Assembly: GCA_900314765.1 (NCBI GenBank)
Contig: OMWN01000037.1
Location: 1 to 64,000, forward strand
Reading direction: 5' to 3'
Source: an uncultured Selenomonadales bacterium
GTDB lineage: Bacteria > Bacillota > Negativicutes > Selenomonadales > Selenomonadaceae
Length of the DNA stretch: 64,000 bases
Shown here: positions 3,903 through 11,087 of the stretch, piece after piece
Position numbering within the stretch: position 1 is the first letter of the stretch
Layout: every line of letters starts with the position of its first letter
Translations under genes and position numbers: made by a program
The notes under the pieces: generated by a model
What the model was told of the DNA's origin: nothing
Database searches by the model: none
What the model saw: only the letters and a program-made list of their open reading frames with translations

Positions 3903-6053
3903 TCATTTGACCGCAATCATCGCAATCGGGAGCGACGCGTCACGCGTGTCCGTCTCCATCGCAAGCACCTCATTCATCTGCTCGCGCGTGGAGAGACCCG
4001 AGAGGTCGACTTGCCGCTCGGCGAAATACGCGAATACGCTCGGCAGCGTCCCGCCAACTGTGCCATATATCGTCGTCTCCGTGAGCAGCACGTCAAGCAA
4101 TTCCTCTGCCTCGCCAATCGCACCGAACGTCACGCCGAGTCCATCGCGCTGCAGCCTGATGACGCCGTCTTTGTCAATGACGCGTATCATGTGACGACGT
4201 TCCTTGAAAATGGTGAAATGCCTCTTCTCAACGACGCCATCAAAAATCGTGTACATGCCATTCGACCATATCTTGTCAACTCGCTTTACGCCATCACGCG
4301 AAACATTCATAGACGCCTTCGCGATGCGCATGAGCTCTTCATCGCTCAGCTCGCGGCGAACGCCATTCACTCGCCTGAGCTCGGTCGCTCCCATCGCCAC
4401 GGCGCGCAGGATATTCGCCTTCGTATCGACTTCGACTGTCGTCTCTATCGTGCCCTCTGCCGCGCCCGATGCCATTGCCCGCGCCTCGGCCTCGCGCCGT
4501 ATGCGCTTCACGTCGTCACCCGTCGGATTTGCGACCGTTCGCTCGACAGACTCTCGCACCATCGCCATCGCGACACCGATTGTCGATATGACGGGCGCAT
4601 GCTTCACGATGCGCCACGGCACGCCCATGCTTTCTCCCATGTACGGCGTCACGACGCCCGCGCTGCCGCCTCCGCCCGCGAGCGTCACCATCTCTGGCGC
4701 GAGCTCATAGTCCCGCGCCAGCGCATCCACGACCGCGCGCAGCTTCGCCACCGCCATATCCATCGCCGCCTGCGCGGCCGCCTCCGCCGTCATGCTGACG
4801 GCGTCGCCGAGCGCTTGCCACGCGACGCGCGCCGCACGAGCGTCGCCTGCCGCATAGTCGCCGTCTGGCACCGTGCCCAGCACATTCGCCGCGCCCGCGA
4901 GCGTCAGCGCGACGCGCCTGCCGCTCGCGTCCTCCACGGCCGCGTATACAGCCTCATCGTCCGCGCACGGCGCCACGAGCTTCAGACTTGCGCTCACATC
5001 AAGTGGCTGCGAAAATGTCTCATACGATAGCCCCGCTATGTGCGCGCTCCTTGGACCCACGCCCGTGATTTTCCCATGCTCGACGCGTATCATGCTGCCG
5101 CCCGCGATGCCGACCGTGCGCACATCGAGAGAGCGAAGATACAGCTTTCGCCCGCCGAGCTCCGCATATCGCACCATGACGCGGCCATCGCGCACGCACG
5201 ATATATCCGTCGACGTGCCGCCCGACTCCATGAATATGCCATTCGACAGCCGCTCATACATGAGCGCGCCCGCAACGCCCGCCGCGAGCCCAGAGAGCAT
5301 CGTGAGCATGGGCCGCCTGCGCACCTCGTCCGTCGTCATGACGCCGCCGTCGCAGCGCATGATCATGAGCGGCGACGATATGCCCGAGCGCTTGACGCAC
5401 GACGACGTCATGTCCGCCGTTTCCATCATCTTCGGGATGAGACTGCCATTGACGACGGCTGTCCGCGTCCTCACCGCGAGACCATAAAGATGTGACACAT
5501 CGTGGCCGCACGTCGCAGGGACGCCCATCGCGCGCGCCGCGTCCATCACCATCGCCTCATGCGTCTCGTCGTCCACGCCGAATGGCTCGCTCGCGATGAT
5601 GACAGCCGCGCCCCTGCGCCTCAGCGCGTCTATCGCGCGTCGAATACTCTCACGAATATCAGCCGTCCCGCCCGTGTCGATGAATTCCGTGTACGTCCGC
5701 AAAAACTTGTGTGGTGCAAGCTCTATGTCGCCAATCGTCGTGTCGGCATGCGCGCGCCCCGCGAACAGCCCGTGCCCCATGCCGACAATGCCCGCCGCCG
5801 CGACATCGCCCTCCAAAAGCGCATTCGTCGCCTGCGTCGTGCCATGCGCGATGAAAACGACATCATCGGGCGCGATGTCGTTTTTCCTCATGATGCTTTC
5901 GATAATCTCGATGATGCTCGCCGCCACACCCTCGGCCGCATCGTGCGTCGTTGGAATTTTCTCTACGGCAATGAGCTCATGCGTCGCGTCATCTATGGCG
6001 ACCGCGTCCGTGAACGTGCCGCCCACATCTATGCCAATTCGCACACGCCTCAT
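3903..6053 (-). CDS. Hydantoinase/oxoprolinase family protein (HyuA-like)
   Basis: ATP-dependent ring-opening amidohydrolase family (hydantoinase A / 5-oxoprolinase / acetone carboxylase beta), 716 residues. The N-terminal IGIDVGGTFTDAV and the later ESGGTSTDIS are ASKHA-type phosphate-binding motifs; a Gly-rich AGGGGSAGVV lies in the C-terminal half. The start at 6053 is chosen because GAGGGGG lies eight bases upstream. It lies 30 bp after the permease gene on the same strand, suggesting uptake and breakdown of one compound. No HyuB partner is in the window, although many members work as A/B pairs. The true substrate (hydantoin, oxoproline or other cyclic amide) cannot be read from sequence. 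Confidence 0.85.
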   Translation of the reverse strand: MRRVRIGIDVGGTFTDAVAIDDATHELIAVEKIPTTHDAAEGVAASIIEIIESIMRKNDIAPDDVVFIAHGTTQATNALLEGDVAAAGIVGMGHGLFAGRAHADTTIGDIELAPHKFLRTYTEFIDTGGTADIRESIRRAIDALRRRGAAVIIASEPFGVDDETHEAMVMDAARAMGVPATCGHDVSHLYGLAVRTRTAVVNGSLIPKMMETADMTSSCVKRSGISSPLMIMRCDGGVMTTDEVRRRPMLTMLSGLAAGVAGALMYERLSNGIFMESGGTSTDISCVRDGRVMVRYAELGGRKLYLRSLDVRTVGIAGGSMIRVEHGKITGVGPRSAHIAGLSYETFSQPLDVSASLKLVAPCADDEAVYAAVEDASGRRVALTLAGAANVLGTVPDGDYAAGDARAARVAWQALGDAVSMTAEAAAQAAMDMAVAKLRAVVDALARDYELAPEMVTLAGGGGSAGVVTPYMGESMGVPWRIVKHAPVISTIGVAMAMVRESVERTVANPTGDDVKRIRREAEARAMASGAAEGTIETTVEVDTKANILRAVAMGATELRRVNGVRRELSDEELMRIAKASMNVSRDGVKRVDKIWSNGMYTIFDGVVEKRHFTIFKERRHMIRVIDKDGVIRLQRDGLGVTFGAIGEAEELLDVLLTETTIYGTVGGTLPSVFAYFAERQVDLSGLSTREQMNEVLAMETDTRDASLPIAMIAVK

Positions 6054-6083
6054 CGCTTCATCCCCCTCATTTTCATCATACAC

Positions 6084-7484
6084 TCACGCGAACATCATCA
6101 CATACGCAAGCATCGCTACGCACATGCCCCACGAAAATGGCAACATGCGCTTAAGCACGTCGCTCGTCTCCGCTCCGACAAATCCTGCCGTCCACACATT
6201 CTGCGAATTCGTCGGGTCGGCCTCCTGCACATAGCTCGTCGCGCGAAAAATGCCCGCGAGCAGCACGGGTGCATACGTGTCGAGCGACATGAGCAGCACG
6301 GCAATGCCCGCGCCCATGCCATACATATTGAGCGGCCCGCGATAGAGCGCGAGTGGCGCAAATACCGCGAAAAACACGAGCAGCATCATGCGCGACGACG
6401 GCAGAGCAAATCTGATGACAGGGTCGAGCACCACCGCGACCTCGGGATGCATGACAGCCGTCACGACCATGCCGATGCCCATGAAAAGAAAAATCACGCC
6501 TGCGACGTCCTTTATGCCGTCAACGATGGCACCCGTCATCACCTGCACGAGCTGACGCGGCCGCGTCATGAGCGACGCATAAAGCGACGCGATGACGAAG
6601 CCCACGATTGCGGCGGCGAGCGCATCGATTTTCCCATCGGCCGCCTTGCCAAAGCCGATTGCGTATGACGTACCGAACACCACAGCTATTGGTATGAGCG
6701 GCGCGAGATATGCCGCCGTGTTCACCGCGCGACGCTCCTTCACGATGCTGTCATCATCGTGGAGCGCCGAGGCGATTGCGCGACATATATCCATCGGCAA
6801 ATGAACGATGCCCTGCATTATCGACGCGAAAAGTTTCCCATAGCCACCATGCGCGCCGTCGGACGGCTTAATGTGGATTGCGATGTAAACCAAAATGGCG
6901 ACGAGCTCGATGACGAATGCGGGGAGATAATACGGCAGTATCGCCTCACCGCCGAATATGCCGATGAACACGCCGTAGCTCGCCGTGTTCGCCGTAAGAC
7001 CGAGTCCGAGCGCGAAAAGCATCAGCGCCGCCGCATCGACAGGCTTTATGCCCGCGCCCGTCATGATGGGAAGCGCGATCGAGCCGACCATGATGACTGC
7101 GCCGAGCCCCGACACGCCGAGGAACACAAAAGCCGTCGCGAAGACCATGAGCAGCGCTATCATGCGCGGCCTGTCACCCGCAAACTCTGCCGCGACGCGA
7201 ATAATGCCATCCGCGATGCCCGTCCGCATAATGACGCGCGCAAACATCGCGCCAAATATGACGACCGCCATCGCACCCGAGAGCTTCATCGAGCCCATGA
7301 GCACCACATCGCCAAGATAAACAAGCGCCGACATCCCCGAGACAAGCGCAATGTACGCCGCCATCAGCGGCAACGCGAGCAGCGCAGGCAGCCGCCCCGT
7401 CGCCATGAGCCCCGCAAACACCAGAAATCCAAAAATTATCAAAAATCCCATCATAAATATACCAGCCCATTTCATGTCTTTCAT
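6084..7484 (-). CDS. Multi-spanning permease paired with the hydantoinase
   Basis: An integral inner-membrane protein of 466 residues with roughly ten or more hydrophobic segments and Gly-rich turns (LGVSGLGAVI, LGLTANTASYG). The general look is that of the ion-transporter superfamily (GntP/CitMHS/NhaC-like secondary carriers); the exact family was not recognised. It ends 30 bp before the hydantoinase gene, so it probably imports that enzyme's substrate. Both the start (ATG at 7484, weak ribosome site) and the substrate are uncertain. Confidence 0.65.
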   Translation of the reverse strand: MKDMKWAGIFMMGFLIIFGFLVFAGLMATGRLPALLALPLMAAYIALVSGMSALVYLGDVVLMGSMKLSGAMAVVIFGAMFARVIMRTGIADGIIRVAAEFAGDRPRMIALLMVFATAFVFLGVSGLGAVIMVGSIALPIMTGAGIKPVDAAALMLFALGLGLTANTASYGVFIGIFGGEAILPYYLPAFVIELVAILVYIAIHIKPSDGAHGGYGKLFASIMQGIVHLPMDICRAIASALHDDDSIVKERRAVNTAAYLAPLIPIAVVFGTSYAIGFGKAADGKIDALAAAIVGFVIASLYASLMTRPRQLVQVMTGAIVDGIKDVAGVIFLFMGIGMVVTAVMHPEVAVVLDPVIRFALPSSRMMLLVFFAVFAPLALYRGPLNMYGMGAGIAVLLMSLDTYAPVLLAGIFRATSYVQEADPTNSQNVWTAGFVGAETSDVLKRMLPFSWGMCVAMLAYVMMFA

Positions 7485-7604: not shown

Positions 7605-8105
7605 TTATTTCATTTTCTCGGGGTACATGCTCGCGAGGAGTCTCTTGCCCGTCGCCGTCTTGAACACTTTCTCGCGAAAGCCGTCGAAGCCTTTCATATA
7701 TTTCTCGCTTTCGTCGGCGTTCACGAGGTAGTCGGCCTCTAGGAGTATCTGCCAGTCGCGCCCCTCGACGTTCACGTATGTATGGTGATGCGTCACGATG
7801 AATATGACGCGCTCTTCCATTTCCTTTGGCAGATTGAATTCCTCGAGAAACGGACAAAGCAGCGCCTCACTCTCGGCCTCTTGATGGTCGCCATTCGTAT
7901 CGCCATATTTCTCGCGGCAGATGGGGCAAGCGATGTCGTGAACGATGGCCGCGACCTCGAGCGTGTCCTGTGTGCGCTTGTCGAGTCGCTCAGCCATGCC
8001 AATCGTCCGCGCGAATGCGTGCACTTTGATAAAGTGGCGTATGTCTTCGCGGTTGCCCTTGTAGAAATCAACCATTTTCAGCGTAATAGCGGATAAATTC
8101 ATCAT
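7605..8105 (-). CDS. HD-domain phosphohydrolase
   Basis: A 166-residue single-domain HD-superfamily protein. The metal motif is visible as KVHAFAR (first His), AAIVHDIA (HD pair) and the later VTHHHTY. Members hydrolyse nucleotides or other phosphoesters; the substrate is not predictable here. GGAGG stands five bases before the ATG at 8105, with a second ATG at 8102. It lies about 30 bp after the TRAP permease gene and is followed by a strong terminator, so it is the last gene of the TRAP transcript. Confidence 0.8.
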   Translation of the reverse strand: MMNLSAITLKMVDFYKGNREDIRHFIKVHAFARTIGMAERLDKRTQDTLEVAAIVHDIACPICREKYGDTNGDHQEAESEALLCPFLEEFNLPKEMEERVIFIVTHHHTYVNVEGRDWQILLEADYLVNADESEKYMKGFDGFREKVFKTATGKRLLASMYPEKMK

Positions 8106-8134
8106 GAGCACCTCCAAATATCAAATCATTTGAA

Positions 8135-10468
8135 TCACTTCGTGAAAAGCTCCACGAGCTCTCTCGCCTCTGCGGGGTCAACGCCATCGCGCGTGACGAG
8201 CTGCTCCTCATACCACTTCGCGACGTCGGCGGATGCCTTTTTGAAGCCCTCCGTGTCGATGTCCTCCGTGTCGGTCACGGTGATTTTGCCCGCTTCCTTC
8301 CACTGCTTGAGTATCTCTTCGCACTCGTAGCGGTTGATTGCGCGCTCATACTCGACGGCCTTCTTCGCGTTCGCGTCGACGACGGCCTTCTGCTCTTCCG
8401 TGAGGCTATTGTAAATGTCGCCATTCATGCAGAAGAACAGGCAATCATAGTATGCGTTCCAGAGCGAAATATGCGCCTGCACGTCCTGCACGGAGCCCGA
8501 TGCAATCGACGGCAACGGGTTTTCCTGACCCTCGACCGTGTTCTGCTGAAGAGCCGTGTACGTCTCAGACCAATTCAAATTCGTGGCGTTCGCGCCCCAT
8601 GACGCATACGACTTCATGAGAAGGTTCGAGCCAGCGACGCGAATTTTGAGGCCTTTTATGTCGTCGACATTTCTTATCGCGCGACGCGAATTCGTTATCT
8701 GGCGGAATCCATTTTCGGCGATGCCCATGCAATGAAGGCCCATGCCCTCGAGAATGTCCTTTAGCTTCTGACCTGCCGCGCCATCAAATTTCGCGTCAGC
8801 GTCGGCGTAATCTTTGAATGCGTACGGCAGCGAGACCGCGTTGAATCTGTCATCGAGCGCCGAGTAAATCAGATTAGAGTGCATGGAAACCTGTATCGGA
8901 TCGCCCTGCTTCAGCGCGGCGATGCCGTCTGGCTGACTGCCGTTCGTGAGCTGGTCGGAGAAGCCATCGACGACGACCTTCACCTTGCCGTCCGTCGATG
9001 CCGCCATGAGCGCGCTGAAATATCGTCCTGCCTTCGCCCACGTACACGTCTTGCCCGGCGAGCAAGCGAAGTGCCACGTCATCTCTGGCCACTCGACATT
9101 GCTTTTCACGGCGTCGAGCTTCGCGTCGTACTGCTCATTGTCGTACATCGCTATCTTCGACGTGCTGCCTGCGCCGAGCGCCATTGCGCCAGTGTGCACA
9201 TCCGCACGCGGGAAATACGTGTAAGCGAGCAGCACTACGAGCGACGAGGCGATGAGCGGCACGACAGCCTGCGAAATCTCGTCGAGCGTGACCGCTTTCT
9301 TGAGCTTGTCGATTTTGAGACTGATAGCCACGAAAAGATTGACACCGACAGGCGGCGTGACTTGGCCGATGGCGAGGTTCACCGTCGTGATGACGCCAAA
9401 AACGACAGGGTCGATGCCAAGCTGCTGCGCGACAGGGAACATGATTGGCACGAAAATATACATTGCGGAATTCGCATCGATGAAGCAGCCCGCGATGAGG
9501 AATATGATATTCACGACGAGCAGGAACACATATTTATTTGCCGAAACGCTCGCGAGGAGTCCCTCAGCCGCAGACGAAATGCCGAAAAGTGTGCAAACAT
9601 ACGAGAAAAGCGTCGCCGAGGCGATGATGAACATGATGCCGCCCGTCGTCTTCGCTGAGTCGACGAATATGGCGCCGAGGTCCGCGACACTGACATCACG
9701 ATAAATGAAAAGGCCAACGATGAGACCGTAGACAGCCGCGACAGCCGCCGCCTCAGTCGGCGTAAATATGCCGCCGTAGATGCCGCCGAGAATGATGACC
9801 GGCATCAAAAACGCCCAGAACGCTTCTTTGAATGACGCCAAGCACTCCGACATCGTGTGCGGCGCGTGTGATGGCTGTATGTTGCGCTTTTTGACTTCCC
9901 ACATGACGATGGCGATGAGTCCGAGGCCGACGAGCACGCCCGGGACGATGCCCGCGACGAACAGTTTGCCGACATTGTCGCCCGTGATGGATGCATAGAC
10001 GACATACGCGATGCTCGGCGGTATGATGATGGCAATGGAGCTCGATGCCGCCATGAGCGCCGTCGAAAATGCAGGCGTGAAGCCGCTCTCAATCATCGCA
10101 GGAATGAGTATTGCGCCGAGCGCTGCAACGGTCGCAGGGCCCGAGCCCGATATCGCACCGAATATGCACGACACGATGACGCAGACGATGGCCATGCCGC
10201 CACGATAATGGCCGATGCAATCATCGACGAATTTTATGAGGCGCGTCGATATGCCCGCCTTCGCCATGATATTGCCGGCGAGGATGAAGAACGGTATCGC
10301 GAGGAGCAATGTCTTCGATATGCCCGAGTACGTATTCGTCACGACGACCGCGAGACTCTGACCCGACACGAGTATAGCCGCGGCACTCGACGCGCCGAGG
10401 CAGATCGCTATTGGCACATCCAGCACCAAAAGCACGAAGAATACTAAGAAAAGGACACCTGTCACCAT
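8135..10468 (-). CDS. TRAP transporter: DctM permease fused to DctP binding protein
   Basis: 777 residues. About residues 1-420 form the DctM large permease of a TRAP transporter: many membrane spans, GAISGSGPATVAALG, TPTEAAAVAAVYG and NLAIGQVTPPVG. After the last span (LVVLLAYTYFPRAD) the chain continues into a complete-looking DctP-type solute-binding domain, with GLKIRVAG (the family's substrate-carboxylate Arg) and VEGQENP. No stop or start separates them. The start ATG overlaps the DctQ stop as TAATG. The C-terminal domain must lie outside the cytoplasm to work, which is plausible if the last helix exits there. The substrate is probably an organic acid but is unknown. Confidence 0.85.
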   Translation of the reverse strand: MVTGVLFLVFFVLLVLDVPIAICLGASSAAAILVSGQSLAVVVTNTYSGISKTLLLAIPFFILAGNIMAKAGISTRLIKFVDDCIGHYRGGMAIVCVIVSCIFGAISGSGPATVAALGAILIPAMIESGFTPAFSTALMAASSSIAIIIPPSIAYVVYASITGDNVGKLFVAGIVPGVLVGLGLIAIVMWEVKKRNIQPSHAPHTMSECLASFKEAFWAFLMPVIILGGIYGGIFTPTEAAAVAAVYGLIVGLFIYRDVSVADLGAIFVDSAKTTGGIMFIIASATLFSYVCTLFGISSAAEGLLASVSANKYVFLLVVNIIFLIAGCFIDANSAMYIFVPIMFPVAQQLGIDPVVFGVITTVNLAIGQVTPPVGVNLFVAISLKIDKLKKAVTLDEISQAVVPLIASSLVVLLAYTYFPRADVHTGAMALGAGSTSKIAMYDNEQYDAKLDAVKSNVEWPEMTWHFACSPGKTCTWAKAGRYFSALMAASTDGKVKVVVDGFSDQLTNGSQPDGIAALKQGDPIQVSMHSNLIYSALDDRFNAVSLPYAFKDYADADAKFDGAAGQKLKDILEGMGLHCMGIAENGFRQITNSRRAIRNVDDIKGLKIRVAGSNLLMKSYASWGANATNLNWSETYTALQQNTVEGQENPLPSIASGSVQDVQAHISLWNAYYDCLFFCMNGDIYNSLTEEQKAVVDANAKKAVEYERAINRYECEEILKQWKEAGKITVTDTEDIDTEGFKKASADVAKWYEEQLVTRDGVDPAEARELVELFTK

Positions 10469-10975
10469 TATGCGTTCACCTCATTCTGATTTTTTGAGCC
10501 CTGCTCTGCGAGAAAATCCTTTGTGTTCTCGATAAAATGAAGAATGAGGCAAATGCCGCATATAGGAATGAACGCCCAGAAAATCCAACGCGCAGCGTGC
10601 ATTACGAATGTATGCTCACCTTGAGCGTAACTCGTGAGCACACGCAGAAATCCCATGTACGTCAGCACAGCACAATAAACGATACTAAAAAAATTTGCGA
10701 TGAGCTTCTGCTTCGTCCTCGTTCCGCCCGTCAGGCGCGACGAGAAAATCGCAAGTCCGATGAGGCCCTCATCCTCTCGCGCGCAGAGAGCTGCTCCCAA
10801 GAGAGATACGAGCACGAAAATCGCTACAACCAGCTCATCCGCGAATGCGAGGGAATGATTGAAAACAAACCTCCCGACGACATTGGCAAACGTGAGGAGA
10901 AGAATAATCGCCATCGAAATAATCAAAATGGCATCCTCCACCTTCGCCAGTCGCTTCATGAATACTTTATACATT
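10468..10975 (-). CDS. TRAP transporter small permease DctQ
   Basis: A 168-residue membrane protein with four predicted spans and the DctQ pattern of NVVGRFVFNHSLAFADEL in the second span. It is the small membrane subunit that pairs with DctM in TRAP carriers, driven by a sodium or proton gradient. The ATG at 10975 is preferred because GGAGGGG lies six bases before it; a TTG at 10989 overlaps that site. Its stop overlaps the next gene's start by one base (TAATG), which implies coupled translation with the DctM-DctP fusion. Confidence 0.9.
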
Positions 10976-11087
10976 TCAATCCCCTCCAAGTAGATAGACT
11001 TTCACTATTTTAACGCAGCGCCTTTATTTTTGCAAGAGAATAAGTGTAAAAATGTAAACTTCTTATAAAAAAATTAGAGACCGCCTT

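Follow-up and report, generated by a model that had tools for sequence, protein, structure and literature searches.

The window, i.e. the whole stretch of DNA that was analysed, is 64,000 nucleotides from an uncultured Selenomonadales bacterium. On its minus strand is a gene in which the large permease subunit of a TRAP transporter, DctM (hereafter M), runs on into a solute-binding domain, DctP (P), in one uninterrupted frame of 777 amino acids from ATG to stop (Table 1). The small permease subunit, DctQ (Q), is encoded by an adjoining gene upstream, whose TAA stop shares bases with the ATG of the fusion in the sequence TAATG. In these respects a sequence-only reading of the same DNA was accurate: it had described a single frame passing from DctM to a DctP domain with GLKIRVAG (fusion residues 606-613, window 8630-8653) and VEGQENP (residues 645-651, window 8516-8536), and a separate DctQ, and both Pfam domains are indeed found in the one protein.

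Table 1. Coordinates of the features at the locus and of selected features in relatives (window positions unless a locus is named)
Feature	Coordinates	Strand	Basis
M-P fusion gene (TRAP large permease with C-terminal solute-binding domain)	8135..10468	-	Single ORF, Pfam/NCBIfam, full-length homologues
DctM domain, residues 7-421	9206..10450	-	Pfam PF06808, E 3e-111
HP1 tip SGSGPATV in DctM	10127-10150	-	Motif position
HP2 motif GQVTPPVG in DctM	9344-9367	-	Motif position
Linker, residues 422-462, hydrophilic	9083..9205	-	Hydropathy, model pLDDT, linker comparison
DctP solute-binding domain, residues 475-755 (fold ~461-777)	8204..9046	-	Pfam PF03480, E 2e-60
DctQ small permease subunit, own gene	10468..10989	-	Pfam PF04290, E 6e-22
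HD-domain protein, 17 bases downstream of the fusion	7605..8117	-	Pfam HD, E 1e-5
M-P-P-P permease, three tandem DctP, 1465 aa	L057:4001-8395	+	Locus mapping, Pfam
M-P-P-P permease, three tandem DctP, 1519 aa	L061:4001-8557	+	Locus mapping, Pfam
LysE/EamB-like exporter near the transporter	L047, L049, L053, L059, L060, L085, L132, L139, L140, L143, L149, L150

In profile searches the fusion scores 372 bits with PF06808 (cut-off 23.8) and 205 bits with PF03480 (cut-off 23.4), TIGR00786 and NF037995 also being above their cut-offs, and DctQ scores 78.5 bits with PF04290 (cut-off 28.3). All three domains that characterize a DctP-type TRAP transporter (TC 2.A.56) are accordingly present. The usual TRAP form, in which P is separate and either secreted or lipid-anchored, is not what is found, P being in the DctM chain and having no signal peptide, but that form is customary rather than a strict requirement. 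The combination of DctM and DctP in one frame is conserved in relatives. The domain search gave no ABC transmembrane or nucleotide-binding domain, the chain being covered by no above-cut-off domains other than DctM and DctP.

The predicted structure of the full fusion has a mean pLDDT of 78.6 and a pTM of 0.56, with the placement of P on M, i.e. the docking geometry, of low confidence. Within this model the DctM part matches Photobacterium profundum SiaM (7qha_B) with Z 39.3 and 3.1 A over 417 residues and also IseQM, an isethionate transporter (9pym_A), with Z 36.0 and 41% identity, and the DctP part matches TRAP binding proteins, best with 4pf8_B (Z 36.6 over 299 residues). Between them pLDDT falls to 32-50 around residues 421-440, and linker residues 422-435 are of low confidence and flexible; the M-P linker is ~41 residues here and up to ~60 in relatives. 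The final hydrophobic segment of the fusion is at residues 401-419 with the charged KIDKLKK before it, and hydropathy analysis reveals no stretch fit for a signal peptide or anchor beyond residue 425 (maximum 0.76). In-frame starts at residues 403-463 were considered as an internal source of separate P and rejected, none supplying a proper signal peptide; inspection of the sequence ahead of them showed no convincing Shine-Dalgarno.

Since the N-terminus of a TRAP M subunit is periplasmic (PMC5812351) and the subunit crosses the membrane with 10 helices, its two hairpins not crossing it (PMC9352664), the C-terminus of M is expected on the outer side. The KIDKLKK charges ahead of the last helix agree with this by the positive-inside rule. 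With the C-terminus so placed, the permease itself can export the P domain, which would then be outside the membrane.

Recurrence of the fusion and selection on its parts

A search for the DctM-DctP architecture across genomes, which the sequence-only reading had suggested, finds it recurring in Treponema, Lachnospiraceae and other Selenomonadaceae. When 84,980 collected species genomes were scanned for homologues, 39 loci were obtained, and those long enough to judge have a full M-P chain through the join, barring a few that are unfused; in their best segment the fused ones share ~59-75% identity with the window protein. The fusion homologues, in Bacillota and Spirochaetota, are 52-75% identical to the window protein. 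The distribution is patchy. In the class to which the window belongs, only three of 380 sampled genomes carry the family: that of the window itself and a pair from a single different genus, one of the pair being apparently the Schwartzia MAG of locus L052. One further genome of the window's own genus (82% complete) was searched and lacks it. The Blautia family has it in 19 of 397 sampled genomes and the Treponema family in 17 of 274, a few of them being unfused or cut by contig ends. Long frames in G081:C43, G019, G015 and G047 were entertained as M-P fusions and discarded, translation yielding separate M and P, or M alone; where both frames are present TAA or TAG stops part M from P.

Low dN/dS in related pairs (0.013-0.065 for M and 0.013-0.08 for P) means that selection preserves both, with the linker the least constrained (0.04-0.24 where estimable). 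Between the window and its Treponema relative L036, pN is 0.16 and pS ~0.8 in both M and P, with synonymous sites saturated. The fusion is genuine, and the parts before and after the join are each under purifying selection. The genome is a draft of 103 contigs, which would be in keeping with a sequencing or assembly error having fused two ordinary genes, and the earlier reading had named a missed stop and start or a one-base deletion as what would refute it. Neither survives the full-length homologues that span the join in many genomes of both phyla. One M-P-P chain (see below) sits on a single contig of 3.59 Mb, the purifying selection runs through the join, and the ordinary outgroups have the order P-Q-M, from which no point error makes M-P. 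The probability of such an error is negligible.

Architectures were read by locating the M, P and Q parts at each locus, unfused Q-M-P loci being read as M-P where a contig is cut. The nearest outgroups checked (L158-L161 and L071) are P-Q-M with P free. In Oscillibacter-type genomes and three Blautia-family genomes the order is Q-M-P, P having its own gene directly behind M. Most unfused P proteins of close relatives have a lipobox (LxxC) and so are lipoproteins. An unfused P of the family at L134:2323-3459 (+), from the Blautia-family sample, has an ordinary-looking signal sequence and no lipobox, and may have been split from a fused form recently. The likely path began with relocation of P to a position behind M; the start and signal peptide of P then disappeared, and some lineages went on to duplicate it. 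In the M tree unfused members are scattered among fused ones and well supported branches force at least two changes, so fusion or fission has occurred more than once inside the window's family; the trees are from quick searches and have moderate support. In both the M and P trees the window copy groups with its relatives in Treponema and not with copies of the Schwartzia type, which together with its rarity in the class suggests that it was acquired by horizontal transfer.

A second group of M-P proteins (L154-L157), in genus g61 of the window's class, has frames of 782-788 amino acids, one of them on a single contig of 2.33 Mb, and its M is 41-43% identical to that of the window. An AU test rejected a single clade made up of the two fused groups and the unfused proteins belonging to the window's family (p-AU 0.0052). 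The M-P architecture therefore most likely arose at least twice, the fusion state being convergent. Genus g61 may be Acidaminococcus. A natural M-P fusion has been noted once, in passing, in Acidaminococcus intestini (UniProt G4Q5D7; Peter et al. 2022, PMC9352664), and the architecture is thereby already accepted in the TRAP family as a rare form, which bears out the earlier reading's view of M-P fusions as unusual.

Tandem binding domains in relatives

Chains with a single P are those of Treponema, Selenomonadaceae and several Lachnospiraceae. M-P-P chains of 1108-1140 amino acids occur in Blautia, Hespellia stercorisuis DSM 15480 and other Blautia-family genomes, and also in one Treponema from horse faeces; two loci encode M-P-P-P (Table 1). 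Pfam recovers two DctP domains in the former and three in the latter. (The predicted M-P-P model, with a pLDDT of 42, is unusable, probably because of too few sequences.) Tandem copies within a chain are 75-93% identical and dN/dS between them is 0.065-0.19, so that all are apparently functional, most likely with the same ligand.

In most proteins the copies of one chain cluster together in the P tree. In L055 and L066, and less cleanly in L037 and L046, the first copies instead group with each other across proteins, as do the second copies. The mixed pattern argues for repeated in-frame duplication, or homogenization, atop a few shared events. In a Treponema-like group a motif of the M-P linker recurs in the P-P linkers (e.g. 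YDxExYDAxxDA), from which the duplicated unit there seems to be linker plus P. Many of the loci are from MAGs, and since short-read assembly can collapse near-identical tandem copies, chains scored as having one P, that of the window among them, may in fact have more. Any benefit of tandem copies is putative because a single-P fusion suffices in many species.

In the literature searched, mainly open-licence papers, no report of tandem P domains on TRAP permeases was found. The breadth of the M-P fusion and its repeated origin were likewise not found reported there, which is not proof of novelty. On balance we lean towards this being an undescribed TRAP family in which the fused P has repeatedly been amplified to two or three near-identical copies, raising capture at one elevator.

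Proposed working, alternatives and known counterparts

Judged from its sequence, the locus very probably encodes a working DctP-type TRAP importer whose large permease subunit and binding protein form one covalent chain. The membrane elevator would consist of the separate DctQ and the M part of the fusion. The last M helix would bring the chain to the outer face, with P being exported without a signal peptide, and P on its linker would capture substrate and dock on its own transporter. The tether would fix the ratio at 1:1, keep P locally concentrated and tie it to one partner only, and in relatives in-frame duplication of the linker and P unit has provided two or three binding domains per permease. 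A simple Gaussian estimate for a chain of ~45-50 residues puts the local concentration of P at millimolar order. The affinity of free SiaP for SiaQM is micromolar (PMC10942642), and with P:QM affinity only at that level a tether can matter. Transport activity and a kinetic benefit may be expected of the fusion: docking would no longer be encounter-limited, and competition from other P proteins would be disfavoured.

This presupposes that P stays attached. If the chain were a precursor cut behind the last permease helix, an ordinary free binding protein would be released, and an AxA motif of the signal peptidase I type is present in 20 of 47 linkers, the window's among them. Shuffling the linkers, however, still yields 16.6 of 47, which amounts to no enrichment of the motif, and it is missing from most Treponema relatives. 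Signal peptidase I sites are usually closer to the helix than is the AxA of the window. A released P would be lost to monoderm Lachnospiraceae, and the linkers separating tandem P domains would also need cutting. Cleavage is thus improbable.

Still less probable, indeed hardly credible, is that the fused P serves to sense or to regulate the permease, or acts as a decoy, instead of delivering substrate. DctP domains do apparently have a sensory role in chemotaxis-receptor fusions of the same class. However, no other free P is found beside the Q and M-P genes, and the sole other DctP domain of the genome belongs to another complete P-Q-M system. Moreover, P is constrained as strongly as M and aligns lengthwise with known delivery proteins. 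The receptor-like proteins, at L081:975-3248 (+) and L082:1876-4047 (-), have HAMP and MCP signalling domains and a C-terminal DctP, which would be cytoplasmic. Similar-looking P matches, as matches only, are in frames of 722-723 amino acids at G313:C1:553220-554029 and G164:C73:21194-21922.

Delivery by a tethered P being the preferred reading, its consequences for range deserve comment. The sequence-only reading had proposed that tethering could change transport kinetics or restrict scavenging distance. Tethering follows naturally from the conserved fusion, while the notion of a new restriction is weakened by unfused P being mostly lipoprotein. As unfused sisters mostly hold P by lipid, fusion would alter stoichiometry and partner fixation more than retention or range. 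Treponema and Selenomonadaceae have outer membranes. For TAXI-GltS fusions, tethering has been proposed to suit bacteria without a periplasm (PMC12344293); the idea fits Lachnospiraceae but not Treponema or Selenomonadaceae, and the presence of the M-P fusion in both monoderm and diderm bacteria of gut and rumen speaks against compensation for a missing outer membrane being its sole role.

With respect to substrate, the solved binding proteins closest in sequence to P are 4p8b and the sugar-acid binder 7bbr, a likeness that makes an organic acid likely. Clustering of neighbours revealed no gene common to most loci. A LysE/EamB-like exporter is near the transporter, on either strand, in 12 loci of Lachnospiraceae, Treponema and Selenomonadaceae (Table 1), and is a possible functional partner. 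ThrH neighbours the transporter in three loci, and in L063, L065, L067 and L069 (Oscillibacter-type) pyruvate-dehydrogenase-like E1 alpha, E1 beta and E2 are beside unfused Q-M-P. The neighbours in some genomes may point to 2-oxo or amino-acid chemistry. In the window, the HD-domain gene downstream is not conserved beside the fusion in relatives and so is probably outside the system. Also on the minus strand, positions 6084-7484 encode an apparently hydrophobic protein of 466 amino acids with no match in Pfam, NCBIfam or PHROGs, adjoined by a hydantoinase/oxoprolinase-family gene at 3903-6083.

TRAP transporters strictly need their binding protein, and weak transient docking keeps the tripartite complex hard to trap. 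From a practical perspective the fused chain is a natural construct for structure determination of that complex, and the 1:1, 2:1 and 3:1 chains together with unfused sisters are a series for measuring the effects of the tether and of copy number on uptake.

Among known systems, the sialic acid transporters HiSiaPQM and PpSiaPQM (7qe5, 8thi, 7qha) share the M and P folds with the window protein, but their P is free and periplasmic and fusion, if any, is of Q with M. Q-P fusions, mentioned as rarer than Q-M (PMC8276074), also join the binding protein to a TRAP membrane subunit, though a different one. A. intestini G4Q5D7 has, like the window, DctM and DctP in one chain, a fusion cited as grounds for treating the tripartite complex as a single chain in modelling (PMC9352664); unlike the window's family it is one case, and tandem P domains are not reported there. 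TAXI-GltS of Lachnospiraceae (PMC12344293), in an overlapping family of bacteria, likewise combines in one chain a binding protein and a secondary transporter of elevator type, but both partners are of other families and the binding protein is N-terminal. Closest to the tandem relatives in plan are GlnPQ-type ABC importers, which have more than one binding domain tethered to the transmembrane subunit (PMC8025302). They are ATP-driven and of unrelated fold, and the tandem domains of GlnPQ are described as differing in ligand specificity, whereas the copies here are near-identical. By analogy, the tandem-P TRAP family may be viewed as the secondary-transport counterpart of tandem-domain ABC importers.
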